In this document: positions 31,714 through 55,919 of the stretch, in pieces
Layout: each line of letters starts with the position of its first letter
Numbering within the stretch: position 1 is the stretch's first letter
Source of the DNA: Siphonodentalium dalli
Taxonomy: Eukaryota > Mollusca > Scaphopoda > Gadilida > Siphonodentaliidae
Length of the DNA: 64,000 nt
Assembly (NCBI GenBank): GCA_032622095.1
Contig: CP136061.1
Span: 15,812,440-15,876,439 of the forward strand
Direction of reading: 5' to 3'
The notes under the pieces: model-generated
Database searches by the model: none
What the model saw: the letters and a program-made list of their open reading frames with translations, nothing else
What the model was told of the DNA's origin: nothing
Translations under genes and position numbers: made by a program

Positions 31714-31774
31714 CTACAAAAGAGATCATAATTAATGTATTGCAATAATAACATCTTACGTGTACCGTTAACTG

Positions 31775-31892
31775 TTGTCGAGAGCTTTCCGATGAATGAC
31801 AACAAGCCATATTTCCGACTAAATCCTGAAAAGTTACTGTTACCCATAATTCTTCTGTGGTTAAGGAGACAATTACTTTGGGCATAACTGTA
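31775..31892. repeat. half copy of the 34.0-kb hairpin MITE
   Basis: Matches the right arm of the hairpin element at 34,030-34,281 (gagagctttcc, caagccatatttccgactaa, acccataattct), with small indels, and ends in the same actgta terminus. Only one arm is present. Confidence 0.7.
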
Positions 31893-32109
31893 TATAATGC
31901 AAATCAATCCATATAGACAATCGCATGGAAAATCAAGTTTCTAATTACTAGTATGGCTATTAATATAATGAATATACTAGTATGGGTTATTCTTAGCTAA
32001 TAGTATATCATTGTATGTCGTATTAGAGCTGACTCTGAAATAGTATGGAATCTGAAGAGGTTTGCCGAATGGTGCTTGCCAGTGAGTTCGAGTGGGACTG
32101 AATATTTTG

Positions 32110-33039: not shown

Positions 33040-33640
33040 CCAAATTTCAAGTCCGGGCTATTCAAAAACGCAATTACCCGTTACCGAGATCTGGTCTGTG
33101 CATGCGCGAAGCTGGCGTCGCACGGGCTCGGCGACCCGATAAAATTTGTATCCGGGGCAGATACATTCACATACCAAATTTCAAGTCGATAGCTCCATCC
33201 GTTTTCCGAGATCTCGTCTGCGCATGCGCGAAGCTGGCGTCGCAACGGGCTCGGCGACCCGATAAAATTCTTATCCGGGGCAAGATACATTCACACACCA
33301 AATTTCAAGTCGATAGCTCCACCCGTTTCCGAGATCTCGTCTGCGCATGTGCGAAGCTGGCGTCGCACGGGCTCGGCGACCCAATAAAATTCGTATCCGG
33401 GGCAAGATACATTCACATAGCAAATTTCAAGTCGATAGCTCCACCCGTTTCCGAGATCTCGTCTGCACATGCGCTGCACGGGCGTCGCACAGGCTCGCCA
33501 ATACGACAACGACCACCGCCTGGTCAAACTACACACACGTACCAAGTTTCGTCCCGATCGGTCGAGAATCGTAGATTTGTATTAATGACAGACAGACAGA
33601 CAAACAGACAGAGGTCTTCAAAATATATATGAGATTAGTT
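33040..33640. repeat. tandem-core array 5 with GACA tract
   Basis: About three and a half copies of a 122-bp unit (gcgaagctggcgtcgcacgg, ataccaaatttcaagtcgat, gagatctcgtctgc), then a (GACA)n tract at about 33,588-33,610. The atacca-aatttcaa core motif is shared with arrays 1 to 3. A 176-codon open frame across it is a by-product of the repeat. Confidence 0.75.
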
Positions 33641-33739: not shown

Positions 33740-34029
33740 TGTACAGACGTCATAAACGAGTCGAAATTTAGCATGGAAATGATGCAATTATTTGTAGACC
33801 AGAATAATGTTGTTTTAAAAAGATTCTTCAAAAATGGCACGCAGTCAGCAAAAAAAATAGATGTTCCACATTAACAATTTTGGATTTTAATACAGAATCT
33901 AGAATTATTTAAAAGCAGACTGTCCACATGTTATCTGTAGAATTGTAGCTCATATATATCAAGACTAAACACGCTGAATGAATATTCTAGCTTCACAGAC
34001 GACCATGATGATGCAAATGCTTGTGTATA

Positions 34030-34281
34030 CAGTAATGCCCTAATTAATCAACTCCCTAACCACAGCAGAATTATGGGTAACTTTTCAGGATTTAGTCGGA
34101 AATATGGCTTGTTGCTATTCATCGGAAAACTCTCCTAGAAATATGGCTTGTTGCCATTCATCAGAAAACTCTCTGCGAGAGCTTTCCAATGAATGGCAAC
34201 AAGCCATATTTCCGACTAAATCCTGAAAAGTTACCCATAATTCTGCTGTGGTTAGGGAGTCGATTAATTAGGGCATTACTG
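34030..34281. mobile_element. hairpin MITE, 252 bp, TA target
   Basis: A near-perfect inverted repeat with ~104-bp arms. The left arm begins cagtaatgccctaattaatc and the right arm is its complement, with three or four differences. Flanking TA on both sides (34,028-34,029 and 34,282-34,283) and a CAGT terminus fit the Tc1/mariner-pogo group. The centre holds a third, partial copy of the inner arm. A solitary half copy lies at 31.8 kb. Confidence 0.85.
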
Positions 34282-34283
34282 TA

Positions 34284-36317: not shown

Positions 36318-36321
36318 TAGT

Positions 36322-36829
36322 TGTTATAACTTTGCCTATTTTGCTGCGATGTGACAAAGTATAACTACAGTAATATTGCGTTTATACCAAACATGAAATA
36401 CAAACGGGGCAGAGAAGGGGTCAAGAAAAGATGTCTCACCTAATCTGCTCGTCTGTGTTCTGTTTGGTCCGGTGGTCTGTTGTCGTGAATCTTTGGGCAA
36501 GTCCGTGTCGTTATCCTGGATGATGGCGTATTGTATGAGTGATGATAGATGATTGTTGGATGTAGGCCAACGTCCTAGAAAACTGTGATGAAGTCCGAAT
36601 GTAACTTAGAACAACATGCGACTGTTCTTGTCGAGAATCGTAACCACAAGAGATCGATAGGGAGATGTATTCTTCCGCGCCACGGAAACCTTCCTTCGCT
36701 CAGTCCGTGCGCCACTCAACGTCCTGGATTCGGTCACCTGATACTTTGACCTTTGACATGATCATTCATAACAACAATAGTCAACAAAACACATGTGCAC
36801 AGTCCACGTGTACCTCAACATTCACCACA
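36322..36829 (-). repeat. 3' LTR (508 bp)
   Basis: Matches the copy at 51,648-52,155 with no difference that I could find. The sense strand starts tgtggtgaatg and ends gttataaca. It is preceded in sense by the polypurine tract. Confidence 0.95.
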
Positions 36830-36840
36830 CTCCTCCCCGT
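36830..36840 (-). other. polypurine tract
   Basis: The sense-strand sequence acggggaggag directly abuts the 3' LTR, the expected position for second-strand priming. Confidence 0.8.
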
Positions 36841-37181
36841 TCCATTCTTTGAGATGGTGGAATATCTCCAAGAAGGTGGTGTTGACTATGTTGAACTCCA
36901 TCCAAGACGCCAAGCAACAGGCAGAGTGAATAACGATGGGCTGCATTATTTTGGGACGCCCACTATCCCTCAGAATACAAGTTCTCCCCTAAAGTCCCTA
37001 AATGGTGCCAGGCACTGATCACAAGCTGCATTATTGGGACGCTTGTTATCCCTTCCGAAAGTCCCTGAAAGTTCTTAGGAGTTCCCGAGATAAACTTCCT
37101 TCGTTTCCAGGAATGTCAAAACTGTTATAGGTGTGGAATCCATTATCTGGGGCTTCCACTACCCCGGCCGAACTTCTGCAG
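36841..37181 (-). other. 3' untranslated region of the retrotransposon with an internal duplication
   Basis: About 340 bp between the end of the fourth frame and the polypurine tract. Two diverged copies of a ~55-bp block (ctgcattatt, gggacgc, tatccct, gtccct) lie at about 36,940-37,000 and 37,025-37,075. No coding sequence is seen. Confidence 0.5.
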
Positions 37182-40100
37182 TCACTTCAAATTGTACAAG
37201 ATTCGCGCATTTTCAGAGGTTATCCTACAAATGTGATGAAGCGAATCCCCTCGAATTTTGGCAACTGCAGCAGCCGTTTCTCCCACAAACAACGGAGTGG
37301 TTGGTCGTTTTCCCCCGAAGTAAGGGGCGTCCGTTTCCAGTAGTAACCGATCATCCGGAACTGCACATAACGCGAGTCGTTGGTCTCGATCAAAGAATCG
37401 CGCCATAGCCGTGAATCCAAAGTAAACCCTAGGAAAAGTCAACCATTGAGCCACAGAAGATTTTCGCTGTCCGAAACAGTGAAGATGCACTGGATAACTG
37501 GTGAGCTGCATCTCCTGGAAGATGGTGAAAACCCGCGAACATACAGCGTCACCGTAAGTATCCGCCCCTCGAAGGTGTAACACGATGGGCTTGTCGGGTG
37601 TAGCAATCTTCAACAGTTCCCTAAGCACATTCTCCTGCGACCCGTGAGTTGAGGCGGGCTCGGTGTAATCTAGCCCAATTTCTCCTAAGGCATTAACTCG
37701 TGGATCCATGACGAATTTCTGCAGTTGATCCTTCAGACGATTACAAAAGAAATGCCACTTCTTTGGATGAAGCCCTACAGCTACTCCCCACTTCATGTTG
37801 AGCTCCTCCTCGGTCGGAAACGTGTTGGGATCACAGAACACAGCCACCCCTCCGTGGAGTTTAATAGGCACTGCTCCTGTGGGTCCTTCCTCTAGTAACC
37901 GATCGAATGAGTCCCTAAAAGCGGGAAATTTCTGCAGGGTCCTATCCATATGGAAATGACTGTCTATGCAAGCTGGTAATGTTGATTCCACGCCGTCCGT
38001 CGAAGTCACCTCTTCTCCCATCCAGTCCTCAAGATCATCATCCTCCAGCGACAAATACTCAGTTGTTGTGGTTTTGACCGGGTCAGGGTCCCCAAAAACG
38101 TTGTCGGATAAACCAGAGGATACTTCTTCCGATTCCTGGACGGGATCAGCAGTCTCTTCTTGAGTTTCGACGTGTCCAACTTCCATAGGCACCTCTTCTC
38201 TAGCTGCGGATTCCGAAAGTAGATCCTTAACCGGGCGAACCAGTCCAGTTCCCACTTCTTCCTCCTCAGCCATCGTTTCAGATTCCGGAAGTAGACCCTT
38301 AACCGGGCGAGCCAGTCCAGTTCCTACTTCTTCCTCTTCTCGTGGTTCGGATTCCGAGGGAAGGCCCTTAACCGGGCGAGCCAGTCCAGGTCCCACCTCT
38401 TCCTCCTCCCCTTCTGTCATAAGTCCCTGCTCCGTTTCGTCTATCTTCCCACCGTATCTCTTGCTCCATACCTCACTCCTGGTCTCTTCGGTAGAATCCC
38501 TGTTGATAAGTGATCTACGTTGAGATGCCGAACATTTGTTTAGCAAGGGGACTAGCGCCCTCCAGTGAACAAGGCAGGCCTTAGAGTTAATAGGATTCAG
38601 TAGAAACGGTCCCTCAGGTTGAATGAAGCCTTCATGTCGAAATTCACTACACAAGAATTCCATCAGTCGAGAATAAGCATGACTCGCAATAGAGCTTTCG
38701 GTTGGAATCCCTCCTTGACCATTAATCTCCTCAACCAACTCTGCATACGAAGAATCCCTCATTTCGACCGATTCCAATCCTTCTGCCATGACGACAAGGT
38801 CATCCAACCCCGTGAGATACACAGGGGCCATCACAGAAAAGTCCATGTCCTCCATTGGCTCCCACAATTTCCGCGAAACATGCGCACCCAGAACATGCCT
38901 CTTCAACTTCTGCGTTGTTGCGGAACAGCCGCTGATAGGACAAGGATACACCAGTTTTCCAGCTTTACGCCGAACTACTCGTCTCCTCCGGTTTTTTAGA
39001 GTTGATCTTCTTGACGACACATCAGTTGAGTCCGGGATGGGCGATTCCATGGTGAAGTTGAGCTTCTGCCTGGACTTCCGCTCGTATACTTCCTTGAATC
39101 CCCACGAAGGAATAATCCCGTCCTCATTGCCTGCGCACAAAATCACACCATTCCGGGCCTTATAAAATTTCAAGCCATTCTTCATACACTTCTCTACGTC
39201 GATGGAAATGACTACCGTGCTGATGGACCTCATGCCCGAAATGACAATTACTTTGTCATCTGGCTCAGCTGTAGCGAAGTGGATGTGTTGACGTTTCATT
39301 TTGCTCAGCCCGGTGGTGCAAATCTTCTGCCAAGCCGCCACCGATGTGCCGTGTAGAACCTTCTCCAACTCCGTGGGAGACGAGATCTCAAGCAACTCCA
39401 GTTCTGGCACTGGAAAGTCGTGCCCCTGCACCGCTCGGATTTTCCAAGTCCCGTCCGCCCGATTGACAAGTTGAAACCTCTGCTTCGCACAATTGGCAAC
39501 CACCCGCTTCACATCTTCCACGTCGACCCCGACCATAGGGGAGCACTCGAGAAGTTTGGTCAGCTCTCCAAATCCTTCCGAGTCTATCCCGACCGTACAA
39601 TCCCTTTGTGGAGTATGTCGGAGCACGCGGGAGAAGAAGCGGCCAATTTCCTCATCAGAAGGTTTCCTCTTCTTTGGTTGAGACGGCACTTGGAGCTCCG
39701 GTTGAGTAGAGATCCTTTTGATTTTACGGGTACATGCAGTAGTGGCAGCCGATGGAATATTTTGTCGTGTCTGCCTTGGCGTTCCTGAAGAAGACTTTTC
39801 TGGAAGTACAGAAGGTATCGTTAAATCATGTACAACATGGGTGGAAGGTGTTACCCCTGATACCCTGACTACTCTCTGTTTAGTTCTACTTCCAATTTTA
39901 ATAAAGTCTTCTTGACCACTAGATTTCGCCGATTCAACAAATTTCTTATTTGCATCCACCGAAAACTTGACATGAATATTTGGCCATTGAGAGGGATTAG
40001 CCCGGCATGGCACAGGCCCATCCCCCACCCTAGCCAAGCATTCCAAAATTACATTTGTATCTGGACAAATTTTAGAAGTTTCGCTTCTCAATGACGATGA

Positions 40101-41642
40101 AGCGGTCGGTGGTGCACCCACGGCTGATGACAAAACCATCTGATTTGGCCCCACTATTTCCATCGGCTTCTGAACTGAATCCACCGCATCGGACCCACTT
40201 AGCCCGGATGAACCAGGCCTGTTGGGAACCGATCCAGGGAAACCTTTCCTGGTCTTACTTGGACAAGCAATCGGCTTTAAAAAGGAATCCACTGTACCAG
40301 ACCCACCTAGCCCGGATGAACCAGCCCTGTTGGGCACCGATACAGGGAAAGCTTTTCTCGGCTTACTTGTACAAGTATTCACAGATTCATCCTTGTATTC
40401 CAGTTTCCCCATAACTGACATGCCTGGTACCGGTTTTCCCATACCTCTCCTGATTCCACACAACAAACCGGGCTGAAAAAGACCTCTTCCTATTGAGCGT
40501 TTTCCCACACCCATGTTTTCTTTATTTCCATCTCCAGCTATTCCGGCAGTGCCAGAACCACTAGCGATGGAAACTCCCTGCTTCTGAGTGATCGAGACAG
40601 TATCATTCCCAGAAGCCCTTTCCTTCACCCCCACAACCGTATCCCCAGTTATTCCGGCAGGGCCAGAACCACTCGAGACAGGCCATACAGGTGATTGCGG
40701 TGTCGAAGAAGCGAACAGAGATTCCGGTGTCCAATCTCCAGCTATTCCGGCAGAGCCAGAACCACTACAGACAAAGCTCCCGGATCCCTGAATAACGGTT
40801 GCAGCTGTATTCTCAATTTCTGGGGCCCTTCCCATCACTGGTATCGCCCCATCTCCAGCTATTCCGGCAGAGCCAGAACCGCTCAAGACGGGCCACACAA
40901 GTGCTGGTGAGATTGCGACTTTAGGTGTCCTATCTCCAGCTATTCCGGCAGAGCCAGAACCACCTGAGATAGGCCACCCAGATGTTGGAATGATTGCAGA
41001 AGCGAGTTGAGATTCCGGTGCCTTATCCCTAGTTATTCCGGCAGAGCCAGAACCACCAGAGACACGACCCCCTGATCCCTGAATGACCGAAGCCCCCTGT
41101 TCTGATGAGTGGGTATACTGAATGGCTACCATTTTCCCTGTTGTTGTTGTATCTGTGCTTTTGACAGGAAGTGTTGATCTTACCACTTTTTTCGTGGAAG
41201 GTTTTGTTGAGGCTTTACAGAAATCGCCCAGATGTTCTACAATGAAACTCTTATCAAAGTGGTAATTTGCATGATCGTATGCTGCCCGTAGCCACCCAGT
41301 ATTTCCCTCGCTCTTTGCAATCTTTATTTGACCTGCAAATAGGGCTTGTTGTTGTTTCCCAGTGATATTGTTGTCACATATCAAAGGATAGACAGCTTGC
41401 TTTACCGGTACCAGGACATGTTTGGCATTCTGCCCACGCAGAAATTCACCAAAAGGCGTAGCTCCGGACCAACCTAGTTGGCCGGGGGTTATGGGTGCAC
41501 TACTACCTTCACTGCTGGGTTTAGACGAGTCCCTTCCGCCTTTCCACGTCGCCTTCCGCGAGTCCCGGCGATCATTAGAGTTCACCCTATTCGTGGGTCG
41601 GCTCCGTCTATACTTGTCACGGGATCCTCGTCCTGAATCCAT
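37182..41642 (-). CDS. retrotransposon ORF4: Tpt1/KptA RNA 2'-phosphotransferase - zinc finger - TatD nuclease
   Basis: A 1,486-residue protein starting at the ATG at 41,642, 43 nt after the pol stop and in another frame. Residues 1-50 are basic and disordered; 55-143 form an unrecognised compact domain. Residues 180-375 hold six GSGSAGIAGD-like repeats and 435-485 two PNR(A/P)GSSGL repeats. Residues 657-856 are a Tpt1/KptA domain (transfers an RNA 2'-phosphate to NAD+). The family's Arg-His-Arg-Arg catalytic set appears as R675-H676 (LRH), R722 (QRF) and R805 (GMR), with QGH 739-741, HGT 764-766, HIH 786-788 and NGVIL 831-835. Residues 900-921 look like a C2H2 finger (C901, C906, H916, H921) with a short loop. 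Residues 1075-1150 hold three acidic EEEVGTGLARPVKGL repeats. Residues 1222-1486 are a TatD metal-dependent nuclease with all expected ligands: H1229, H1231, E1321, H1356, H1388 (or H1386), D1438. No signal peptide or membrane helix is seen, so it is not an envelope protein. Confidence 0.92.
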   Translation of the reverse strand: MDSGRGSRDKYRRSRPTNRVNSNDRRDSRKATWKGGRDSSKPSSEGSSAPITPGQLGWSGATPFGEFLRGQNAKHVLVPVKQAVYPLICDNNITGKQQQALFAGQIKIAKSEGNTGWLRAAYDHANYHFDKSFIVEHLGDFCKASTKPSTKKVVRSTLPVKSTDTTTTGKMVAIQYTHSSEQGASVIQGSGGRVSGGSGSAGITRDKAPESQLASAIIPTSGWPISGGSGSAGIAGDRTPKVAISPALVWPVLSGSGSAGIAGDGAIPVMGRAPEIENTAATVIQGSGSFVCSGSGSAGIAGDWTPESLFASSTPQSPVWPVSSGSGPAGITGDTVVGVKERASGNDTVSITQKQGVSIASGSGTAGIAGDGNKENMGVGKRSIGRGLFQPGLLCGIRRGMGKPVPGMSVMGKLEYKDESVNTCTSKPRKAFPVSVPNRAGSSGLGGSGTVDSFLKPIACPSKTRKGFPGSVPNRPGSSGLSGSDAVDSVQKPMEIVGPNQMVLSSAVGAPPTASSSLRSETSKICPDTNVILECLARVGDGPVPCRANPSQWPNIHVKFSVDANKKFVESAKSSGQEDFIKIGSRTKQRVVRVSGVTPSTHVVHDLTIPSVLPEKSSSGTPRQTRQNIPSAATTACTRKIKRISTQPELQVPSQPKKRKPSDEEIGRFFSRVLRHTPQRDCTVGIDSEGFGELTKLLECSPMVGVDVEDVKRVVANCAKQRFQLVNRADGTWKIRAVQGHDFPVPELELLEISSPTELEKVLHGTSVAAWQKICTTGLSKMKRQHIHFATAEPDDKVIVISGMRSISTVVISIDVEKCMKNGLKFYKARNGVILCAGNEDGIIPSWGFKEVYERKSRQKLNFTMESPIPDSTDVSSRRSTLKNRRRRVVRRKAGKLVYPCPISGCSATTQKLKRHVLGAHVSRKLWEPMEDMDFSVMAPVYLTGLDDLVVMAEGLESVEMRDSSYAELVEEINGQGGIPTESSIASHAYSRLMEFLCSEFRHEGFIQPEGPFLLNPINSKACLVHWRALVPLLNKCSASQRRSLINRDSTEETRSEVWSKRYGGKIDETEQGLMTEGEEEEVGPGLARPVKGLPSESEPREEEEVGTGLARPVKGLLPESETMAEEEEVGTGLVRPVKDLLSESAAREEVPMEVGHVETQEETADPVQESEEVSSGLSDNVFGDPDPVKTTTTEYLSLEDDDLEDWMGEEVTSTDGVESTLPACIDSHFHMDRTLQKFPAFRDSFDRLLEEGPTGAVPIKLHGGVAVFCDPNTFPTEEELNMKWGVAVGLHPKKWHFFCNRLKDQLQKFVMDPRVNALGEIGLDYTEPASTHGSQENVLRELLKIATPDKPIVLHLRGADTYGDAVCSRVFTIFQEMQLTSYPVHLHCFGQRKSSVAQWLTFPRVYFGFTAMARFFDRDQRLALCAVPDDRLLLETDAPYFGGKRPTTPLFVGETAAAVAKIRGDSLHHICRITSENARILYNLK

Positions 41643-41650
41643 GTCTGGAT

Positions 41651-41682
41651 ACTGGAATGATCATACAAGGATATTAGAAAAT
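41651..41682 (-). promoter_or_regulatory. candidate splice acceptor before ORF4
   Basis: In the sense direction the 43-nt gap between pol and ORF4 contains a branch-point-like ttctaat, then a pyrimidine-leaning stretch ending attccag, with the exon starting 9 nt before the ORF4 ATG (AG at 41,653-41,652). This would let ORF4 be made from a spliced subgenomic RNA, as env is in retroviruses. Splicing is inferred. Confidence 0.5.
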
Positions 41683-41685
41683 CTG

Positions 41686-44600
41686 TCACTCATTACACTC
41701 AGGACAGAAATACTTATTTATTTTCTTAGCAGCTTTCTGCGTAACTTGAACACACGCCCCGTGATACCATTCGAGACACCCATCGCATTGAATCATGAAT
41801 TCATTATCATAGGGTTGTCTACAAATACAATAGAGGGGTTGAGTTGATCCCGACCCACTATCTGCAAGCGACTTCTGAACTATCTGAACCCACCGAGGGA
41901 AGCTAAGCTCCCTACACAATTTTATGCGATCATAATGTAAAACCACTTCAGTGCTTCTTAAACGCACTTTAAAAAGATTTGATGTTATGACATTTATAAT
42001 CACACCGGGACCCTTCCAGTTCGCTTGCAGCTTTTTGCATTTACCCTTTATAGTGGCGGTATCTCTCATGTATATCACATCCCCCTTTTTGAAGGGACGT
42101 TTAAGAGTACGGGTGTTAAAGTTACCTTTCATCACCTTTTGAGCCGTCTGTAAGTTCTCTCTCGCTACCTCATGGGCGCTTAGAATGGCCTCCTCCAGAT
42201 CCAACACAAATTGTGGAATATTGTCGTGGACTGGCTTACCTTTTGAGGGAATAATGAGGTCTACTGGTTTATTCACCTCACGACCCAACATTAAAACATT
42301 TGCCGTATAACCAGTTTGCCTATTCACAGCGGATCGGAGTGCCCCAGCTAATTGTGGTAAAAATACATCCCACGATTTTTGTTTCTTAGCTGTGAAGCAA
42401 CGCACGGCGTCCATGAGGGTCCGGTTATACCTCTCAACCTGTCCGTTCCCAGACGGCCGATAAGGGGTACAACGGGATTTGTGGATATTCATAACTTTAC
42501 ATACAGCCGCAAAAAGGTTACTTTCAAAATTTCTGCCCTGATCGGTAAATATCTCAAACGGGAAACCAAACCGTGAGAAAAATTCATTAACTGCTGCTAA
42601 GGCAGTAACTTCTGCAGTTTGGGATGGCAGGGGGATACACTCTACCCATTTAGAGAATTGGTCCACCATCATGAGGATGTACTCATTGCCCTTCTCTGTT
42701 TTCGGCAGAGGACCCAAAAAATCAAGGTGGACCCTTTCCATGGGGTAACCCGCCTGATAAGATTGTAAGGCAGCCTTTGGGTGTCTATTTGGTTTCTTAC
42801 TTAAATTGCATGCCTTACAAGCTGCCACCCAACCCTCCACATCTTTAGTCAGCCCATACCAGTAATACGAGTCCTGAACTCGTTGTTTTGTCCGTGCAAT
42901 GCCCTGGTGACCGGACAAAGGAATATCATGGCACAACATGAGGACCTCCCTTTTCAATTTCCCGGGAACCACCACCACTTCTCTCCCAGACTTCCTCACT
43001 TTGTACAACAAGTTATCTCTGAGCATAAAAATCTCCTTATTTAGCCAAAAATACTTAGACGCTGGGCCTGCTATAAATAGCTCAGATTCCGATGGTTCCC
43101 TTTGGGTCTCCAACCAATCCAGGATTATCCTGAGATCTCGATCCTGGGATTGGAATTCCCTGAGTTCCTCCCCAGTATAAGTGGGCAAAGACACAGAACT
43201 TACTGCAATGAGTGGTCCCGAAATGTCCACACTGGTAATGGGTATACAAGTATGAGGAGAAGACGGTCTGACGATTACAGGCTTATGTGTCTCCAGAACT
43301 TCACTTGGCAGGGATAGCGGTTCTGAGAAGGGTTCTCTATACCGCCTACCTGTGCCAGGATCAACAGTTCCCCACATAGCTGTAGCATTTGGGGCTTCAC
43401 CAGGTGCGGTTTGTCCTACACCCGGGTCAATAGCCCCCCCTGTTTCAGAAGTTTCATCCCAGCGAGTTTGGTCCTTGGGTGCACTCTCCCGTAAGAGAGA
43501 TTTGTTAACACCCTCCCTACTCAGCTGAGAATCATGCACCTCTAGTCCCAAAGAATGGCTCGGAACCCTGTCTCTCCCATTTGATTGGAAAGGTTCCCCT
43601 TCATCCTTGGGATTCGATTCGAACTCAATCCCTCCCGGGTCCCAGACCATACGTTCCATCCCCAAATTCGAAACTGCTGGGGGCACTTGACAACTTGGTG
43701 ACCCCCCTGGGTCCCCCACCGGATGGACGATGCCTGGAGACCGAGTTTCGTCGTCCCCTCCATGCGGCCTGGAAACAGGTCCTGACACCCCTGACTGAAG
43801 ACCTTCCATTCCCACCCCCGAATCTTCCTCCTCCCATAGGTGATAGATGTCCAAAGGATCATCATCGAGGCTGGTGGGTACAGAAAGGGGCGTCCCTGGC
43901 CTTACTCTTATCTGTCGTACGGCTCGAAAACCGCCTGACGCCAGTGGAATTACATAATCTACCTCGTCCGAAAACCTCTCCCACCTCTCCTGGGCCCTGG
44001 AACAATACTTGCAGCCCTCACAGGGTAATGATTTCACCCCCAATTTCGGGCAACACTCCCCCCATGGAATCCGACTGAGAGCATCAGCATTGATGTGCAG
44101 ATCTCCCTTCCGGTGTTTTATTACCATGTTATATTGGCTGAGCTCTTCGAGCCATCGAGCCAACTGACCTTGGGGCTCCCGAAATCCCATCAACCAAGCA
44201 AGGCTACCGTGATCCGTCCGGACCGTAAATTCCCGACCCAGGAGATAATGTCGATATTGACGGGTAAATAGAACCACAGCGAGCAACTCTTTACGGGTTG
44301 TGCAATAGTTACGCTGTTCTTTCGTTAGAGATAGACTACCGTAATGGATAACTCGTTCCCTCCCCTCCTGGAACTGAATTAATTCAGCACCAACACAGAA
44401 ACCAGAACTATCTGTGTCAAGAATGAATGGGTCTACATTGTTTGGCAATGTTAAAGCCGGGGGCTTGGTTAGGGCCTGTCGGATTGATTCAAAAGCCCTG
44501 GCTTGGTCCTCCCCCCACACAAAAGGATTCCTACTTGTAACTAAGTAAAGTGGTTGGGCTAACTTTGCATAATCCTTTACGAAAGTTCGGTGGTAGTTAG

Positions 44601-46329
44601 CCAAGCCCAAAAACTTTTCCACATCCTTTCCATTTCGGGGGGTAGGCCACTCCAGGATAGCCTCAGAAGCACCCTCACCCATTTCCACCCCATCCTGACT
44701 TACTGTTCGACCCAAAAACTGAATTTTCTTCTGGAACAGCACAGATTTACGGGGTTTTAGTTTCAACCTGTGCTGCCGAAACCTCGTCAAGACTACACTC
44801 AGGTTTTTTAAATGATCCAAATAGTCTAAACCCATAACAACGCAATCATCCACGAACGCCAAAGCTACTTTCCACATCAGTCCTTGAAGAACTAGATTAA
44901 TAGCCCTACAATAACTAGCTGGCGCCCCTGACAAACCGAAACTCATTCGTTTAAATTCAAACAGCCCGTATTTTGTAATGAAAGCGGACTTACATTGGTC
45001 TTCTGGTTTGATTCGTAATTGGTAATACGCCTGGTTAGAATCGACTTTGCTTAGCCATTTGTTACCGGCTAACGCATCTAAACACTGGTCAACTAACGGA
45101 ACCGGGTATAAATCTCGTTTAGTGACTGAATTCAGCTTCCGATAATCCAAGCACCACCTGACGGAGCCATCAGATTTGCGAATTAACACGGGGGCGGAAC
45201 ACCAATCACTAGAACTTGGTTGAATTATACCGGCTTCAAGCAATTTGTTTAAGTGCGATTCTTCCTCCTCTACAAAATGAGCTGGGGTACGACGCATCCG
45301 GAGTTTAACCGGAAGCGCATCCCCAGTTGGGATTTCATGTTGAATTAAATCCAAATCCCCAAGGTCATAATCATGTTGGGCAAATACATCTTGGAATTCA
45401 ATCAACAATTTTCGCAAGCCCAATTGTTCAAGTTCTGATAAGTGACCTCGCGACCTCTCGTACAAGTCCACTAGATAAGAAGGTATCTCATCAGCGTTTT
45501 GTGCAACCGATACTTTATTGGCACATGGCATTGGTAATGTTTGTGTGATTGAGTCCATGACAGCCGCACCTGGTGTGGCAATAGCCTGAGTGACCAACTG
45601 ACCCCTCCGTAATCGTATCGCCCTGTCAGTCAGATTAACCACACATGCAACTGGAGATTCCGTGTTAGAGTGAAAACTACTGGCCACCAAAAGTGAGGGC
45701 TCATGAAAAGAACGCTCCAAAACGAAATCACCATTCAATTTTGATGTTTTACACTTAACCAAGGCTATCATATGAGGTGGGATGGTTCTAGTCGATTTCA
45801 TATATACGTCCGAACAAATGTTATCAACTTGCCTCAGTAACTCATTGGGTGCCGACAAAATATCAGGTCCCTGTGAACCCACAGGTTGAATATCGCCCGG
45901 TGACGAATCAATATTATCACAATAGTTTTCCGGGTTTGTTGAACATGACTTAGAAATCGAGACCTCTCCCCCAAACTCCGAACATTCTTGCCTACGTACC
46001 TTCTTATCATTTGAAATTGGAAATGGGCAGTGCTGTGAGTCGAAGTTCAGCCCGGATGAACCAGGCCAAGCCTCTCCCCCAAACCCTGAGCATTTTGCTT
46101 CCCCTGTCACTTTTTCACACGACATGGGACGCATCCGTTGCAGTGAGTCAAGATTCAGCCCGGACTGGCCAGGCCAAGCCTCTTCCCCATGCTCCGAACG
46201 CTCTTTATCATGCGATAGCTCTGTTCCCCTTGGTTCCTCAGTTGAAATTGCAATTGGAAATGGGCAGTGCTGTGAGTCGAAGTTCAGCCCGGATGAACCA
46301 GGCCAAGCCTCTCCCACAAACCCTGAGCA
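41686..46329 (-). CDS. pol: retrotransposon Pol: RT, RNase H, integrase, C-terminal PHD finger
   Basis: The frame is open from 46,329 with no ATG near its start; residue numbers count from the GTG at 46,317 (1,543 codons). Residues 1-100 hold three EAWPGSSGL-type repeats. The reverse transcriptase spans about 330-515, with D426 in the palm motif (VDSNQAYYQ) and FVDD at 488-491. RNase H spans 630-748 (D634, E677, D702, D745). Next come a cysteine cluster (C755, C756, C766, C769, C772) and an unusual ~270-residue Pro/Gly-rich disordered insert. The integrase has an HHCC zinc site (H1130, H1137, C1167, C1170) and the DD35E triad D1199, D1259, E1295, then a GPY/F-like WKGPG at 1434. Residues 1496-1541 form a C4HC3 PHD finger ending just before the stop. 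The order is Ty3/Gypsy-type; a PHD in place of a chromodomain is unusual. Confidence 0.95.
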   Translation of the reverse strand, partial: CSGFVGEAWPGSSGLNFDSQHCPFPIAISTEEPRGTELSHDKERSEHGEEAWPGQSGLNLDSLQRMRPMSCEKVTGEAKCSGFGGEAWPGSSGLNFDSQHCPFPISNDKKVRRQECSEFGGEVSISKSCSTNPENYCDNIDSSPGDIQPVGSQGPDILSAPNELLRQVDNICSDVYMKSTRTIPPHMIALVKCKTSKLNGDFVLERSFHEPSLLVASSFHSNTESPVACVVNLTDRAIRLRRGQLVTQAIATPGAAVMDSITQTLPMPCANKVSVAQNADEIPSYLVDLYERSRGHLSELEQLGLRKLLIEFQDVFAQHDYDLGDLDLIQHEIPTGDALPVKLRMRRTPAHFVEEEESHLNKLLEAGIIQPSSSDWCSAPVLIRKSDGSVRWCLDYRKLNSVTKRDLYPVPLVDQCLDALAGNKWLSKVDSNQAYYQLRIKPEDQCKSAFITKYGLFEFKRMSFGLSGAPASYCRAINLVLQGLMWKVALAFVDDCVVMGLDYLDHLKNLSVVLTRFRQHRLKLKPRKSVLFQKKIQFLGRTVSQDGVEMGEGASEAILEWPTPRNGKDVEKFLGLANYHRTFVKDYAKLAQPLYLVTSRNPFVWGEDQARAFESIRQALTKPPALTLPNNVDPFILDTDSSGFCVGAELIQFQEGRERVIHYGSLSLTKEQRNYCTTRKELLAVVLFTRQYRHYLLGREFTVRTDHGSLAWLMGFREPQGQLARWLEELSQYNMVIKHRKGDLHINADALSRIPWGECCPKLGVKSLPCEGCKYCSRAQERWERFSDEVDYVIPLASGGFRAVRQIRVRPGTPLSVPTSLDDDPLDIYHLWEEEDSGVGMEGLQSGVSGPVSRPHGGDDETRSPGIVHPVGDPGGSPSCQVPPAVSNLGMERMVWDPGGIEFESNPKDEGEPFQSNGRDRVPSHSLGLEVHDSQLSREGVNKSLLRESAPKDQTRWDETSETGGAIDPGVGQTAPGEAPNATAMWGTVDPGTGRRYREPFSEPLSLPSEVLETHKPVIVRPSSPHTCIPITSVDISGPLIAVSSVSLPTYTGEELREFQSQDRDLRIILDWLETQREPSESELFIAGPASKYFWLNKEIFMLRDNLLYKVRKSGREVVVVPGKLKREVLMLCHDIPLSGHQGIARTKQRVQDSYYWYGLTKDVEGWVAACKACNLSKKPNRHPKAALQSYQAGYPMERVHLDFLGPLPKTEKGNEYILMMVDQFSKWVECIPLPSQTAEVTALAAVNEFFSRFGFPFEIFTDQGRNFESNLFAAVCKVMNIHKSRCTPYRPSGNGQVERYNRTLMDAVRCFTAKKQKSWDVFLPQLAGALRSAVNRQTGYTANVLMLGREVNKPVDLIIPSKGKPVHDNIPQFVLDLEEAILSAHEVARENLQTAQKVMKGNFNTRTLKRPFKKGDVIYMRDTATIKGKCKKLQANWKGPGVIINVITSNLFKVRLRSTEVVLHYDRIKLCRELSFPRWVQIVQKSLADSGSGSTQPLYCICRQPYDNEFMIQCDGCLEWYHGACVQVTQKAAKKINKYFCPECNE

Positions 46330-46334
46330 TTAAA

Positions 46335-47213
46335 TCATGTTTGTGTCGCTTTTTCACATGATATGTGACACGTCCGTTGCAGTGAGTCAAGGCCTAGCCC
46401 GGGTGAACCAGGCCCAGCCTCCCCCACATGCTCCGAACGCCTCACATATTCCATTTCACATGGTTGTTCTGTCCCCATTTGCTTATGGGCTAAATTCTCA
46501 TCGATCTGGGCCAAAGACTTACTACAACCCGGGGGCCCAACACTACAATTCCCCCTTCCTATCTCATCAGGTTCTGATGGAACATATTCCTCAAACCTGA
46601 TCATTTCGCCACCCTCAGTGGGAATGCTTTCACCCCCAACAGACAACTCTTTGGCTAGCAAATCGAGAGAAATGCCATGTTTTTTCATAAAGTCCAACCC
46701 CAACAACATATCATCTTCAATAGGAGCGACATATATATATTCCTCAAATGTTTGACATCCAATATTTATTTGGATGGGCCCTACGTATGAACCAGTGAAT
46801 TTTGAATTTCTAGCAGCCATCCTCATAGGTACTTGTTTAATGACACTAGGTTTACAATTCAATTTGTTAAAAATTGTGTCTGATATAATGGTGACATCAG
46901 CTGCCGTGTCAACAATTGCATGTAGTTCTAGCCCATTTACTAATAAGGGTAGATTTATCATTGACCTCTGAATTCGGCGAATGAAAATTTCCTTCAAATC
47001 GGATGCACCTGGGTCAAATACCTGTTCATCTTGGAAGAATTTACTGGAGTTCTCAGTTACCTCCATACAAAAATCCACTGGATCATGTGTTGATTTATGG
47101 TCGGGTCCCTCCCCACAAACATTGAGACTTGAAGAACTTATGTCTAACAAATTCCGATCCCACCCAGAATGGTGATCTACCTGTGGCTGTGGTACGCGGG
47201 GTTGGCAAGTCAT
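46335..47213 (-). CDS. retrotransposon protease (retropepsin)
   Basis: The 292-codon frame from the ATG at 47,213 encodes an aspartic protease. The catalytic D102-T-A lies in HAIVDTAADVTIIS, followed by a flap region and the LLGLDFMKKHGI helix typical of Ty3/Gypsy retropepsins (residues 170-181). The frame is also open upstream of this ATG, past the gag stop, back to the slippery heptamer at 47,330. It is therefore more likely made as a Gag-protease fusion by -1 frameshifting. The last ~50 residues carry one EAGPGSPGL repeat. The frame ends in TGA inside another repeat of that family, just before pol. Confidence 0.88.
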   Translation of the reverse strand: MTCQPRVPQPQVDHHSGWDRNLLDISSSSLNVCGEGPDHKSTHDPVDFCMEVTENSSKFFQDEQVFDPGASDLKEIFIRRIQRSMINLPLLVNGLELHAIVDTAADVTIISDTIFNKLNCKPSVIKQVPMRMAARNSKFTGSYVGPIQINIGCQTFEEYIYVAPIEDDMLLGLDFMKKHGISLDLLAKELSVGGESIPTEGGEMIRFEEYVPSEPDEIGRGNCSVGPPGCSKSLAQIDENLAHKQMGTEQPCEMEYVRRSEHVGEAGPGSPGLGLDSLQRTCHISCEKATQT

Positions 47214-47296
47214 TGACCGACTTTGCCCATGCTCGCACAGCCACCTGTCTTCATCACTCTGCGTGGGGTCCGGGAGGTCATTTGAACAACCGCGAC

Positions 47297-50200
47297 TTAC
47301 TCTCTGACCTCTCGAGGAGTCGCGCTGTAGTTTCCCTGTGCATATCTATTTTGTTGGTTCTTGGCTGGACAGTGTGCCCTTATGTGGCCAAAACCCTGAC
47401 ATCCAAAACAGCGAATATTCGTCAAATTCTTTGTGTACTGGGCTGTATTTGGGTTATTCGGGTTCTTATTTTGATTGGCCTCGTAATTGGTTTTCTTCTG
47501 GTAATTGTATTGCCCCTTTTGATTATGATTTCCCATGGCAATCTGACCCTGTGCCCTGTCATCAGAGGACTTCCTTACGAATGATGCTAGTTTACCAATT
47601 TCTGTTGTCAAATTGGACATACTCTGGGACATACTCGACTTAAATTTGTCCATATCCCCCTGGAGGGTTGCAATTCTATCCTCCTCCTCCCGGGTAAGAG
47701 ACACGGCCGGCATTCCGAATGAGACTTGCCGGGCCTCTCTCTTTTTCCCATTTCCCTCACCCCGACTTGACAACATATATTGAACACTAGTTTTGGCCTC
47801 TTCCATTGACTCATGCCTAATGCCCTGGTGAAAACTGGCTACCTCTTTGTCCCTCAACCCACGGCAAAACCTCGATGCCAAATGTCCCTCCAACACTTTG
47901 GTTGATGACCCCTCAAAGACTCTGCACCCTAGATCTTGCAATCTATCGGCCCAATCCTCCAGGGACTCATGAGGTTCCTGACAGGCGTTATAAAAGACAT
48001 TAGCCAAAGTATCTGGTGGCAATGTTTCCCCAAATCTAGTGGCCAATTTTCCCATCATCCATTTGAATCTCCCCTCTGGTTTTTGTTTTTTTATCATCGT
48101 GAAATACTCTGAGGCCTTCCCATCCAAAGCCCAACAAAGAGTATTACGTTTTTCGGAATCTTCCATATGTCCCGTACTAACAAACGCCATAATCTTATCA
48201 CGGAAAGCCGCAAATTTCCCCTTTCCGTCGTACTTAAGTACACAATGCGGCCTTCTGCCTTTATTTCCCCCATACATGTAGGTACCACCCTGGGAAACAT
48301 CGCGACCACCCCCCTGGTTGCGAACTGGTGATGGCGATGAGCTACTACTGCTACTAGAGCTAATAGTGCTCCTTTTCCGATGACTACTCTTTGCATGTTT
48401 TTTACTTCGCACCACAGGTGATGCTTCTCTACGGGATTCGCGCTCCTTATGGGACTTGGTCCCCTTATAACTTGATTTACGTCTACAGTCGTGCTCCCTA
48501 CTATCCCGTTCTGTCAATCGCCTTATGCGGTGGCTGATTTCATCGAACTCTCCCATATGGTCGGAAGTTATGTGCTGAACCCTGTACGGAACAATGTCTT
48601 TACATGTATATGGAATCGGTGAATACATGTTGGCAGTTGTTTGCTCAAGATTCAGCCCGGGCTGGCCAGGCCAAGTCCCTCGCAAACATTGCTGCCTGTA
48701 CAGATTCGTGGAGTCGAATTGACCTGTGGCAGGTGTTCGCTCAAAGCCTAGCCCGGGTGAACCAGGCCCAGCCCCTCGCAAACATTCCTGTCTGTGCAGA
48801 TTTGTGAAGTTTAGTGGAACTGTAGTATTTTCATATATGTTGGCAGGTGTTCGTTCGAGGCCTAGCCCGGGTGAACCAGGCCCAGCCCCTCGCAAACATT
48901 CCTGTCTGTGCAGATTTGTGGAGTTTAGTGGAACTGTAGTATTTTCATATATGTTGGCAGGTGTTCGCTCAAGGCCTAGCCCGGGTGAACCAGGCCCAGC
49001 CCCTCGCAAACATTCCTGTCTGTGCAGATTTGTGGAGTTTAGTGGAACTGTAGTATTTTCATATATGTTGGCAGGTGTTCGCTCAAGGCCTAGCCCGGGT
49101 GAACCAGGCCCAGCCCCTCGCAAACATTCCTGTCTGTGCAGATTTGTGGAGTTTAGTGGAACTGTAGTATTTTCATATATGTTGGCAGGTGTTCGCTCAA
49201 GGCCTAGCCCGGGTGAACCAGGCCCAGCCCCTCGCAAACATTCCGGTCTGTGCAGATTTGTGGAGTTTAGTGGAACTGTAGTATTTTCATATATGTTGGC
49301 AGGTGTTCGCTCAAGGCCTAGCCCGGGTGAACCAGGCCCAGCCCCTCGCAAACATTCCTGTCTGTGCAGATTTGTGGAGTTATGCCGATTTATGGTATCT
49401 GGCAATGAGGTATGTATGGAATGTGGTTCTCGAGTTTTACTGTTATGTAAGATTTCCGGTTTTTGCTGAATGACGATGGGGTCATACTTTGCACGCATCT
49501 GCTCGGGGCTCAGCCCGGACTGGCCAGGCCAAGCTCCTTGCCGATGTGTGTTGGGGTCAAACCTAGTTGCCTGCATCTGCTCAAGACTCAGCCCGGATGA
49601 ACCAGCCCAAGCCCCTTGCTGATGCATCTTTTGGTCGAACATAGTTGCCGGCCTCTGCTCAAGGCTCAGCCCGGATGAACCAGCCCAAGCCCCTTGCTGA
49701 TGTGCCGGATTATCAACTACCCCCGAAAATTCCTTCACCATAATGTCACCCAGCCCCTCGCTCTCCGAGACTGTGGAGTCATTTCTTGAACGAAACGTGG
49801 AGCAAGTCAGAGTCCCTGACGAGTCCAGTTCCGATGATACCCTTGACGAATTAGAATCCCTTGAAGAATTAACCCTGTGACGTTTTGGTGAATTATTGTC
49901 AACCTTGGTGATAACCAATGAATTTCGGGCAGCTCGTGTTTTAAGAGACTTATGTTTCCCTGTCGACCTTGATGACCCAGACGACCTTGATGTAACTGAT
50001 GAATGTGATGCATCTGATGACCTCGGCATGGCCGATGAACTCGACCGCCCCGATGACCTTGATACCCCCGATGAACATGATACCCTTGACCTGCTGGAAA
50101 TTCTCGAGTCATCCAATCCATCCTCGGTCCTACCCCTATTCCCCTCCACCACAAATTTCTTGGATTTGGAAACTTCACTTGACTTCCGAGGGGTGGATTG

Positions 50201-50971
50201 GGCCATTGGCTGTACTCCAGACAGGTCCATGTATTTAGATTGGGGTTCGGGAAGTTTAACGTCTTTGGTTGGACGAAACTCATGTGGCTCCACCATGGGG
50301 GCATTTGTGGCCATAATTGGTTTGGAATCCCCTCTCTCATTTGTGTAATAGCCCACTGGTATTTCTGATCTAGGGGCTCCTCGAACAAGATAACTGTGGG
50401 CAGGTTCTAAACCAGGCCTCTTCATCAACAACTTGTGGGGCTCCCTCAACTCCGGTGTCGCCTCCCCATCACCCCAAGATATCCACCCTGGGGAGACACT
50501 TGGGTTACTCTGAAGTGATGCCTCAGGGGTCACCCCGGTTGCAGTCGGTTGATGCCATGCGCCAGAAAGGTTCAAAACTTCCTGCCCTGACGTAACGGGG
50601 GTCAACAATTTGATTTCCCCTCCCTCAACCTTGTCCACAACACCCTCCGAGATGCTATCTCCCAATAGTCCTCCCGGGCGAGCTTGGGCGACACCCACTC
50701 TAGAGTCTGCACAATGCCCCAGGTATAATGTGTCTGTTCGAAGCACAGTTTCACTGTCCTCGAATCTAGGCCCCCTTTTATCCTTTGCATCATATGGCTC
50801 GTATGAGAAGCATTGCCTAATCTGAGGCTGAATGCATAAGTCGATGAGGTGGTTCTCATCGAGATTCCCATACATGTGTCTATTTAACAGAATTAAATCC
50901 GCCCTCTTTACCCCAACTCTCGGAACATTTAATAATTCCCCATAAGAACATAAATTTATCTGAACCGTCAT
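47297..50971 (-). CDS. gag: retrotransposon Gag with helix-hairpin-helix, tandem repeats and CCHC knuckle
   Basis: Starts at the ATG at 50,971 and gives 1,224 residues, far longer than typical Ty3/Gypsy Gags. Residues 3-46 look like a ComEA-type helix-hairpin-helix (INLCSYGELLNVPRVGVKRA then IDLC). Residues 260-400 are Ser/Arg-rich. From about 425 to 780 come three GAW(A/P)G-GLS repeats, six near-identical 38-residue repeats and one more TWPGQPGLNLEQ unit. A basic Arg/Lys/Ser stretch follows, then the Gag capsid-like domain at roughly 890-1060 (FAAFRDKIMAF, LATRFGE, SLEDWADRL). One zinc knuckle, CX2CX4HX4C (CFGCQGFGHIRAHC), lies near the end. The protein should assemble the particle and bind the genome. 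Translation can shift into protease at 47,336-47,330. Confidence 0.9.
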   Translation of the reverse strand: MTVQINLCSYGELLNVPRVGVKRADLILLNRHMYGNLDENHLIDLCIQPQIRQCFSYEPYDAKDKRGPRFEDSETVLRTDTLYLGHCADSRVGVAQARPGGLLGDSISEGVVDKVEGGEIKLLTPVTSGQEVLNLSGAWHQPTATGVTPEASLQSNPSVSPGWISWGDGEATPELREPHKLLMKRPGLEPAHSYLVRGAPRSEIPVGYYTNERGDSKPIMATNAPMVEPHEFRPTKDVKLPEPQSKYMDLSGVQPMAQSTPRKSSEVSKSKKFVVEGNRGRTEDGLDDSRISSRSRVSCSSGVSRSSGRSSSSAMPRSSDASHSSVTSRSSGSSRSTGKHKSLKTRAARNSLVITKVDNNSPKRHRVNSSRDSNSSRVSSELDSSGTLTCSTFRSRNDSTVSESEGLGDIMVKEFSGVVDNPAHQQGAWAGSSGLSLEQRPATMFDQKMHQQGAWAGSSGLSLEQMQATRFDPNTHRQGAWPGQSGLSPEQMRAKYDPIVIQQKPEILHNSKTREPHSIHTSLPDTINRHNSTNLHRQECLRGAGPGSPGLGLERTPANIYENTTVPLNSTNLHRPECLRGAGPGSPGLGLERTPANIYENTTVPLNSTNLHRQECLRGAGPGSPGLGLERTPANIYENTTVPLNSTNLHRQECLRGAGPGSPGLGLERTPANIYENTTVPLNSTNLHRQECLRGAGPGSPGLGLERTPANIYENTTVPLNFTNLHRQECLRGAGPGSPGLGFERTPATGQFDSTNLYRQQCLRGTWPGQPGLNLEQTTANMYSPIPYTCKDIVPYRVQHITSDHMGEFDEISHRIRRLTERDSREHDCRRKSSYKGTKSHKERESRREASPVVRSKKHAKSSHRKRSTISSSSSSSSSPSPVRNQGGGRDVSQGGTYMYGGNKGRRPHCVLKYDGKGKFAAFRDKIMAFVSTGHMEDSEKRNTLCWALDGKASEYFTMIKKQKPEGRFKWMMGKLATRFGETLPPDTLANVFYNACQEPHESLEDWADRLQDLGCRVFEGSSTKVLEGHLASRFCRGLRDKEVASFHQGIRHESMEEAKTSVQYMLSSRGEGNGKKREARQVSFGMPAVSLTREEEDRIATLQGDMDKFKSSMSQSMSNLTTEIGKLASFVRKSSDDRAQGQIAMGNHNQKGQYNYQKKTNYEANQNKNPNNPNTAQYTKNLTNIRCFGCQGFGHIRAHCPAKNQQNRYAQGNYSATPREVRE
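47330..47336 (-). promoter_or_regulatory. -1 ribosomal frameshift site GGGAAAC (gag to protease)
   Basis: In the sense direction the gag codons read CAG GGA AAC, so the heptamer is G GGA AAC in exact X XXY YYZ phase, 11 codons before the gag stop. The -1 frame is closed by a TAG just upstream of the heptamer and is then open through the whole protease frame. GGGAAAC is a known working slippery sequence class in retroviruses. A downstream pseudoknot was not verified. Confidence 0.75.
48726..49385 (-). repeat. six 114-bp tandem repeats inside gag
   Basis: Units of exactly 114 bp (38 codons) start near 48,733, 48,847, 48,961, 49,075, 49,189 and 49,303 and are nearly identical at the DNA level. 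Each encodes a PGSPGLGLERTPANIYENTT-containing unit. Near-identity at all positions points to recent expansion rather than old selection. The opposite strand is also open across the array, which is a by-product. Confidence 0.95.
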
Positions 50972-51631: not shown

Positions 51632-51646
51632 CTGCTCGCAGCGCCA
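51632..51646 (-). other. primer-binding site, tRNA-Ser-like
   Basis: One base after the 5' LTR the sense strand reads tggcgctgcgagcag, the complement of a tRNA 3' end ctgctcgcagcgcca. From memory of the animal tRNA-Ser (CGA/UGA) family, 3' ends of the form ctgctcacagcgcca differ at about one base, so a serine tRNA is the best candidate primer. The host tRNA set is needed to confirm this. Confidence 0.7.
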
Positions 51647-51647
51647 T

Positions 51648-52155
51648 TGTTATAACTTTGCCTATTTTGCTGCGATGTGACAAAGTATAACTACAGTAAT
51701 ATTGCGTTTATACCAAACATGAAATACAAACGGGGCAGAGAAGGGGTCAAGAAAAGATGTCTCACCTAATCTGCTCGTCTGTGTTCTGTTTGGTCCGGTG
51801 GTCTGTTGTCGTGAATCTTTGGGCAAGTCCGTGTCGTTATCCTGGATGATGGCGTATTGTATGAGTGATGATAGATGATTGTTGGATGTAGGCCAACGTC
51901 CTAGAAAACTGTGATGAAGTCCGAATGTAACTTAGAACAACATGCGACTGTTCTTGTCGAGAATCGTAACCACAAGAGATCGATAGGGAGATGTATTCTT
52001 CCGCGCCACGGAAACCTTCCTTCGCTCAGTCCGTGCGCCACTCAACGTCCTGGATTCGGTCACCTGATACTTTGACCTTTGACATGATCATTCATAACAA
52101 CAATAGTCAACAAAACACATGTGCACAGTCCACGTGTACCTCAACATTCACCACA
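51648..52155 (-). repeat. 5' LTR (508 bp) with promoter-like motifs
   Basis: The sense-strand U3 side carries a CACGTG E-box (52,131-52,136) and a direct pair of nuclear-receptor-like half-sites (gtcaaaggtcaaag, 52,084-52,070). A TATA-like ggtataaacg lies late, at 51,714-51,704, and a donor-like ttag|gtgaga at 51,766/51,765. Which TATA or initiator is used, and so where R begins, cannot be decided from the sequence. No canonical AATAAA is seen. Confidence 0.9.
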
Positions 52156-52159
52156 TAGT

Positions 52160-55800: not shown

Positions 55801-55919
55801 ATTTTATATACCATGTGTAGCATCACGATTTTATATGCCATGTTTAGCATCACGATTTTATATACCATGTGTAGCACCACGATTTTATATACCATGTGTC
55901 GCGTCACGATTTCATATAC
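52826..55919. repeat. diverged 27-bp satellite with 1.5-kb tandem segmental duplication
   Basis: Degenerate 27-bp units of the type taccatgtgtcgcatcacgattttata fill the stretch. A segment of ~1,472 bp (about 52,880-54,351) is repeated directly at about 54,352-55,861 with very few changes; copy 2 carries 38 extra bp near 54,914. Each copy includes ~500 bp of non-satellite sequence (53,545-54,045 and 55,055-55,555). Within that is a strong hairpin (aaactcgttcagtaaattag and its complement, 53,935-54,006 and 55,445-55,516). The 76-codon frames in these cores are probably chance. Confidence 0.85.

Follow-up and report, generated by a model that had tools for sequence, protein, structure and literature searches.

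A complete Ty3-type long terminal repeat (LTR) retroelement of 15.8 kb, which carries a fused Tpt1/KptA and TatD protein in the position of env, was identified in a 64,000-nt stretch of the genome of the scaphopod Siphonodentalium dalli (hereafter the window; GenBank assembly GCA_032622095.1, contig CP136061.1, positions 15,812,440–15,876,439). The element occupies positions 36321–52155 of the minus strand and consists of four separate open reading frames (ORFs), namely gag, protease, pol, and a fourth frame, ORF4, which encodes an uninterrupted protein of 1486 amino acids (aa). Pfam analysis of ORF4 revealed strong matches to PF01885 (Tpt1/KptA; 163 bits against a curated cut-off of 26) and PF01026 (TatD; 125 bits against a cut-off of 27), the hidden Markov model (HMM) comparison that had been proposed in the initial annotation of this sequence. 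All ten residues named in that annotation were present, R675, H676, R722, and R805 in Tpt1 and H1229, H1231, E1321, H1356, H1388, and D1438 in TatD, to which we presume the catalytic and metal-ligand roles known for these families apply. With these sets intact, both domains are predicted enzymes. Tpt1 proteins use NAD+ to remove internal 2'-phosphates or ADP-ribosylate nucleic-acid ends, and members of the TatD family cleave or trim DNA or RNA. The best PDB matches of the Tpt1 domain were 7yw3 and 7yw2, named tRNA 2'-phosphotransferase 1, which we take to be vertebrate TRPT1, an enzyme that ADP-ribosylates nucleic-acid ends.

Assessment of the remaining domain architecture revealed an N-terminal helical domain (N) and, between Tpt1 and TatD, a further domain (MID) followed by an acidic linker. 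The Cys-Cys-His columns of the MID finger were invariant and its last His was conserved in at least 90% of 20 aligned rows. Foldseek comparison with PDB folds gave no match for the AlphaFold2 model of MID (mean predicted local distance difference test score, pLDDT, 81.8; best E 0.84) or for that of the N domain (best E 0.66). No transmembrane segment was evident in ORF4, the highest 19-residue hydropathy mean (1.74) lying inside the Tpt1 domain, and the Pfam scan gave no env glycoprotein domain, no DEDDy exonuclease, and no GDSL domain.

The two LTRs and a short duplication enclose gag, protease, and reverse transcriptase (RT)–RNase H–integrase in the order of Ty3/Gypsy elements, the gag match being weak. 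The LTR proper probably measures 508 bp (TGTGGT...ATAACA, thus TG...CA). The best PDB match of the RT–RNase H region was Ty3 Gag-Pol (7q5b, E 9e-97). After the integrase, Pfam gives a PHD finger and no chromodomain, so the element does not classify as a chromovirus; by analogy with chromodomains, the PHD finger may steer integration to marked chromatin or histones. The element is young and multi-copy and was inserted recently. The Ty3/Gypsy assignment, the intact LTRs with matching sequence, and the Tpt1–TatD fusion in the env position at exactly 37182–41642, all claimed in the initial annotation, were borne out by the presence of LTRs, duplication, gag, protease, and pol in one unit. The repeats proved to be 509 bp long and 100% identical, with ACTA on both sides. 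The view of that annotation that ORF4 belongs to the element and is no neighbouring gene likewise holds, as identical LTRs and a target-site duplication enclose ORF4, which recurs in copies and families. The further copies and families, the N and MID domains, the PHD finger, and the acceptor-like site described below go beyond that annotation. The N-terminal part of gag is long and rich in repeats. A peptide motif of the GAWPGSSGL or GAGPGSPGL type occurs nine times in gag, once in the protease, and three times at the pol start, and is absent from ORF4.

Features of the element in the window, listed from its 5' to its 3' end
Feature	Positions	Strand	Basis or remark
Target-site duplication ACTA (4 bp), 5' side	52156..52159	-	flank read
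5' LTR	51647..52155	-	509-bp repeat, 100% identical to 3' LTR
Primer-binding-site-like stretch, begins TGG, 1 base past 5' LTR	51632..51646	-	sequence read
gag ORF, 1228 aa	47297..50983	-	Retrotrans_gag weak (E 0.0017, under its cut-off) and CCHC knuckle
Retropepsin-like aspartyl protease ORF, 292 aa	46335..47213	-	PF13975 E 7e-10
pol ORF, 1543 aa: RT, RNase H, integrase H2C2 and core, PHD finger	41686..46317	-	Pfam
PHD finger, C-terminal end of pol	41695..41829	-	Pfam; nearest PDB chains PHF2, BPTF, PHF8
3'-splice-site-like stretch (TTCTAAT ... CCAG), pol stop to ORF4 start	41652..41685	-	rank 5 of 616 AGs of pol and ORF4
ORF4, 1486 aa: N domain, repeats, Tpt1, MID, acidic linker, TatD	37182..41642	-	env position, after pol
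N domain (about residues 63–145), helical	41208..41456	-	profile match; AlphaFold2 blocks above 90 pLDDT
Six 69-nt repeats, spacing in multiples of three	40527..41090	-	repeat scan; low-complexity part of ORF4
Tpt1/KptA domain, residues 663–838	39129..39656	-	PF01885 E 7.5e-48; R-H-R-R present
MID domain, residues 891–1063: C2H2 finger (C901, C906, H916, H921) and helical domain	38454..38972	-	alignment, AlphaFold2
TatD domain, residues 1226–1484	37191..37967	-	PF01026 E 4.3e-36; six metal-ligand residues
Purine-rich tract ahead of 3' LTR	36830..36843	-	sequence read
3' LTR	36321..36829	-	509-bp repeat, 100% identical to 5' LTR
Target-site duplication ACTA (4 bp), 3' side	36318..36321	-	flank read

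Copies, families, and selection

Genome searches were conducted against the window's own assembly (2.23 Gb, nine contigs). A search with ORF4 matched at least 43 stretches (31 of the 744 candidates were scored), and near-identical copies, here termed family one, were located on contigs C1, C2, C3, C5, and C7. Both LTRs were sought at six family-one copies besides the window: four of them (L063, L064, L067, and L068) had both LTRs and a 4-bp duplication, the 5' LTR of L066 was cut off by the end of the fetched piece, and no LTRs were found at L065. Immediately upstream of the near-complete L066, and on the same strand, is a partial ORF4 copy, L071 (G000:C5:114004847-114020401), the two representing nested or tandem insertions.

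Three further families carry Tpt1 and TatD domains 33–45% identical to those of the window with the catalytic residues kept, although the family-four piece that was fetched ends inside TatD and two of its ligands lie outside that piece. Family two, with an ORF4 that is about 35% identical to that of the window and, in intact copies, 894 or 950 aa long, was inspected at six places, all of which showed an LTR-like repeat pair of 278–290 bp (98.6–100% identical) together with gag, protease, and integrase–PHD matches. The RT core could be matched at five of the six, the other (L082/L083) having a rearranged, partly inverted pol. ORF4 was interrupted at one place (L086), and all ten catalytic residues were kept in four of the other five. 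Families three (L101, L102) and four (L103) present integrase–PHD followed by an ORF4 with Tpt1, N, MID, and TatD. The family-three RT is 59% identical to that of the window. For family four, the genome search gave a full-length TatD match together with the Tpt1 match in one open frame of 1371 codons, and no RT match was obtained in the 2-kb piece fetched upstream (a gap of 0.8 kb between the pieces lay outside the comparison). The domain order was N–repeats–Tpt1–MID–TatD in family one, Tpt1–MID–TatD without an N match in family two, and Tpt1–N–MID–TatD in families three and four. The R-H-R-R set was present in 18 of 19 aligned Tpt1 rows. For TatD, 44 of the 49 rows aligned had all six ligands, and one of the remaining five was a truncated row; eight proteins, three without TatD and five others, were left out of this alignment. 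Sequence matching the PHD finger could also be observed in families two to four and at the two Tpt1-less loci with integrase described below (behind the integrase at L082, L084, L086, L089, L090, L092, L101–L103, L107, and L109).

The ratio of nonsynonymous to synonymous substitution rates (dN/dS) was estimated by simple Nei–Gojobori counts with damaged copies included, which should raise the values. Comparison of the window with L094, a diverged relative (68% identical stretch), gave an ORF4 dN/dS of 0.205 (dS about 1, Fisher p 9e-38), with 0.17 for Tpt1 and 0.17 for MID. Between the family-two subfamilies B2 and C2, dN/dS was 0.35 for ORF4 (p 3e-4), 0.16 for pol, and 0.43 for gag; by part, with few changes in each, ORF4 gave 0.36 for Tpt1, 0.31 for MID, 0.23 for TatD, and 0.84 for the acidic linker. 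Five family-two copies compared in ten pairs ranged from 0.19 to 0.42, eight of the ten with p below 0.05. ORF4 is under purifying selection. The evidence that it is a working component of the element is good, and it looks like a conserved component rather than a stray gene.

A pyrimidine-rich AG occurs between the pol stop and the ORF4 start in all four Tpt1-bearing families. Based on a simple home-made acceptor score, this site ranked 1 of 386 AGs in family three, 1 of 458 in family four, 5 of 616 in family one, and 16 of 680 in family two; when windows of equal width were compared, a site as good was present in 2 of 122, 2 of 136, 8 of 247, and 20 of 271, respectively. Since an acceptor-like site stands just upstream of the start codon, we infer that ORF4 is expressed from a spliced subgenomic RNA. 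The ORF3s of LTR elements are typically expressed from spliced messages, according to the available part of PMC5408684.

Tpt1-less loci, relatives, and known systems

Scanning of the genome with PF01885 gave at least 83 matches (150 of 154 candidates scored), and PF01026 gave at least 150 (150 of 529 candidates scored). A Tpt1 match on the same strand within 6 kb upstream accompanied 33 of the 150 scored TatD matches. Three long frames without Tpt1 were opened. Two of these (L107 and L109) consisted of MID and TatD with integrase–PHD directly upstream, and the third (L108) contained N, MID, and TatD, with nothing matching integrase in the 1 kb of upstream sequence that was fetched. Because such Tpt1-less MID–TatD frames adjoin integrase–PHD, TatD–MID looks like the core and Tpt1 like an add-on of varying place. 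MID and TatD, often with N, are common to several element families, at least four of which also carry a Tpt1 of eukaryotic type. All three tests by which the initial annotation could have been refuted favoured it: the HMM matches were strong, the fusion was present in further copies and families, and dN/dS was well below 1 wherever divergence suffices. Its treatment of Tpt1 and TatD as a pair stands for the window, where the two are fused, but the pair is not the unit, as TatD and MID occur without Tpt1 behind integrase–PHD at two loci.

Beyond this genome, ORF4 was alignable with 21 long TatD proteins, and the Cys-Cys-His columns of MID were common to all 22 rows. Some of these proteins are named as coming from Crassostrea, Pecten, Diadema, and Strongylocentrotus; the comparison covered the proteins alone. 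Two MID–TatD relatives (P0001 and P0003) have two MID copies and HYDKCD in place of the ligands HHEHHD; their TatD domains are probable pseudo-enzymes. A Mytilus trossulus protein (P0004) consists of a retropepsin followed by Tpt1, while a metagenome protein (P0005) places Tpt1 first, then protease, RT, and RNase H in one frame, its RT region being 57% identical to that of the window. As both layouts differ from that of ORF4, there are probably three or more arrangements in which Tpt1 has become part of Ty3-type elements. A scan of a viral-contig collection with ORF4 and P0005 returned nothing; query A1 returned three TatD loci at 28–29% identity, and query A2 returned 58 loci encoding a Tpt1 relative, six of which served as tree outgroups.

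Phylogenetic analysis of Tpt1 (19 rows, the origins of the PDB rows being our assumption) placed the element Tpt1s with the eukaryotic rows, split at 100/99 from the viral-contig and prokaryotic rows; the order within the eukaryotic side was poorly resolved and did not separate one Tpt1 gain from several. The TatD tree (47 rows; P0001, P0003, P0009, P0041, P0042, P0052, and P0053 were left out) grouped the element TatDs with MID-bearing proteins (26 rows), split at 100/100 from 21 rows including those named TATDN2, and joined the four Tpt1-bearing families at only 64/65. Animal TATDN2-like long TatD proteins resemble ORF4 in having a C-terminal TatD after a long low-complexity part. Plain capture of TATDN2 found no support, the element TatDs falling outside the TATDN2-named rows.

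Among known systems, Ty3 (7q5b) shares the RT–RNase H match and the RT–RNase H–integrase order; to our knowledge, it has neither an ORF4 nor a PHD finger. The Tpt1 domain appears akin to TRPT1/Tpt1/KptA by its HMM match, R-H-R-R set, and position on the eukaryotic side of the tree, and is here situated inside a 1486-aa retroelement protein. Chromoviruses, in the available part of PMC12440569, are Gypsy elements with a chromodomain at the pol end; the likeness is a histone-reader-type domain in that place, which here is a PHD finger nearest PHF2, BPTF, and PHF8 instead of the chromodomain. The available part of PMC5408684 describes the Juno and Vesta LTR elements of bdelloid rotifers, which similarly carry an enzymatic ORF in the env position in several families, with a nuclease for nucleic-acid 3' ends in ORF3 and expression from spliced messages. 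In contrast, the rotifer enzymes are a DEDDy exonuclease or a GDSL esterase where TatD and Tpt1 are found here, and ORF3 shows no significant departure from neutrality there, against dN/dS of 0.2–0.35 here (PMC5408684, same part). The PHD finger behind the integrase also differs from the rotifer elements.

No LTR element with Tpt1 or TatD appeared in the titles and opening lines of abstracts that the searches listed; Repbase and the majority of subscription journals lay outside their reach. Word searches revealed neither TatD nor phosphotransferase in PMC12440569, PMC6338049, PMC6431247, and PMC5408684, and no KptA in PMC5718144, in which "phosphotransferase" refers to transposase-type enzymes; according to the search listing, TatD occurs 0 times in PMC6238403. 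In the available part of PMC3286476 a PHD finger protein is named only as a gene near an insertion, and in that of PMC6962438 TATDN2 appears solely as a gene name within the legend of a figure. Thus, an enzymatic ORF in the place of env is already known from rotifers (PMC5408684, available part), and the enzyme pair of Tpt1 and TatD was not met in the literature searched.

Elsewhere in the window, large tandem arrays with many copies about 75–95% identical occupy 52825–60000, beginning about 0.7 kb past the 5' end of the element. An array of repeats of about 122 bp occurs at 33076–33526, and an inverted repeat at 34028–34283, whose 112-nt arms are 95% complementary and separated by 32 nt, is related to a copy at 31770–31894. 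An open frame of 639 codons on the minus strand (8168–10084) reads like a leucine-rich-repeat protein and is probably a host gene.

Possible functions of ORF4

Tentatively, and with somewhat less than even confidence, ORF4 is read from its domains as an element-borne tool for the processing or repair of RNA or DNA ends. The protein, made from the spliced RNA, would have the nucleic acids of the element itself as substrates at about the stage of reverse transcription. The part of TatD would be to shorten 3' ends in RNA or DNA, such as those of primer, template, or cDNA. Where cleaved genomic RNA or primer tRNA has undergone healing-type repair, Tpt1 would clear the 2'-phosphates left behind, as these may block reverse transcriptase if they persist. 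N and MID may be adaptors holding the protein to nucleic acid or Gag, and TatD may be the older function with Tpt1 as a later addition. In the layout of P0005, Tpt1 would be made together with RT, which argues for work inside the particle.

Several observations weigh against this reading. Among the matches listed, 117 of the 150 scored for TatD lack a Tpt1 match within 6 kb upstream on the same strand, and 48 of these 117 lie in frames of at least 700 aa; a scored TatD follows downstream of only 37 of the 83 for Tpt1. Since there are related element loci that retain TatD and lack Tpt1, the latter is not generally required. Catalytic residues have been lost in L094 (H676Y) and in one family-two copy (D1438Y). 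The family-three pair gave a dN/dS of 0.46 (p 0.18). The newest family-one copies have too few differences to be informative; L065–L069 gave 0.82–1.13, values inflated by the repeats, which in copies with deletions were matched out of register. Thus L066 and L067 gave 0.94 and 0.90 out of register and differ from the window by only two changes, both nonsynonymous, in 1232 aligned codons, while L068 gave 1.13 out of register against 0.36 (6 synonymous and 7 nonsynonymous changes, 1023 codons). As for expression, the acceptor-like site of family two is weak, and no convincing splice donor could be found in the leader (best score 1.7).

The main rival is counter-defence, which we consider unlikely though worth serious weight: the host would cleave RNA or tRNA, or ADP-ribosylate nucleic acid, and ORF4 would reverse the damage in trans and so protect the element. 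Tpt1 is gained or lost between families and varies in position like arms-race modules, and a Tpt1 relative is encoded at the 58 viral-contig loci. The baculoviruses NeleNPV, NeseNPV, and NeabNPV are reported to carry homologues of KptA/TPT (PMC3230848, available passage), likewise a Tpt1 in a virus-like element of animals, although gammabaculoviruses are DNA viruses and KptA/TPT is not a fusion in that passage. Against counter-defence, the constraint on Tpt1, taken over the domain as a whole, is purifying (0.17), and no host trigger is known here.

It is rather improbable that Tpt1 serves as an ADP-ribosyl transferase that caps 5'-phosphate ends of the element's RNA or cDNA, as a shield or a mark, while TatD trims 3' ends. 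The tRNA 2'-phosphotransferase 1 structures found as best matches are consistent with such capping; the same site serves 2'-phosphate removal, and the two activities are inseparable by sequence. That ORF4 is a captured host gene carried as an unused passenger is disfavoured and highly unlikely: the domain order varies and some copies are damaged, but the catalytic residues are kept in the three further families at the stated domain identities (within the piece fetched for family four), and dN/dS is 0.2–0.35, with ORF4 below gag in the B2–C2 comparison. An envelope or entry protein with the enzyme domains as decoration, to which the env position and the spliced-message-like start would point, has very little probability and was rejected in the absence of any evident transmembrane segment or Pfam glycoprotein domain. 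An assembly artefact, or a host gene adjoining an LTR element, is refuted by the identical LTRs and target duplication that enclose ORF4 and by near-identical copies on five contigs, the single 100-N gap of the window being distant (15381–15480).

Returning to end processing and repair, it is possible, if on balance doubtful, that these elements form a widespread invertebrate LTR lineage with its own repair enzyme, in which an old TatD–MID end-processing or replication factor received Tpt1, perhaps repeatedly and in different places (in ORF4, before or after the protease). They would then be the first retroelements with their own RNA-repair step, mending cleaved template or tRNA or beating a host RNA-cleaving defence. 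The finding adds two enzymes and two unassigned domains, N and MID, to the known cargo of LTR elements, and may explain some invertebrate TatD proteins left as uncharacterized by their sources. What Tpt1 does in animals has long been a puzzle, because the usual account of animal tRNA splicing has no need of the enzyme; an element that replicates and maintains Tpt1 under selection offers a tractable setting for finding a real substrate.

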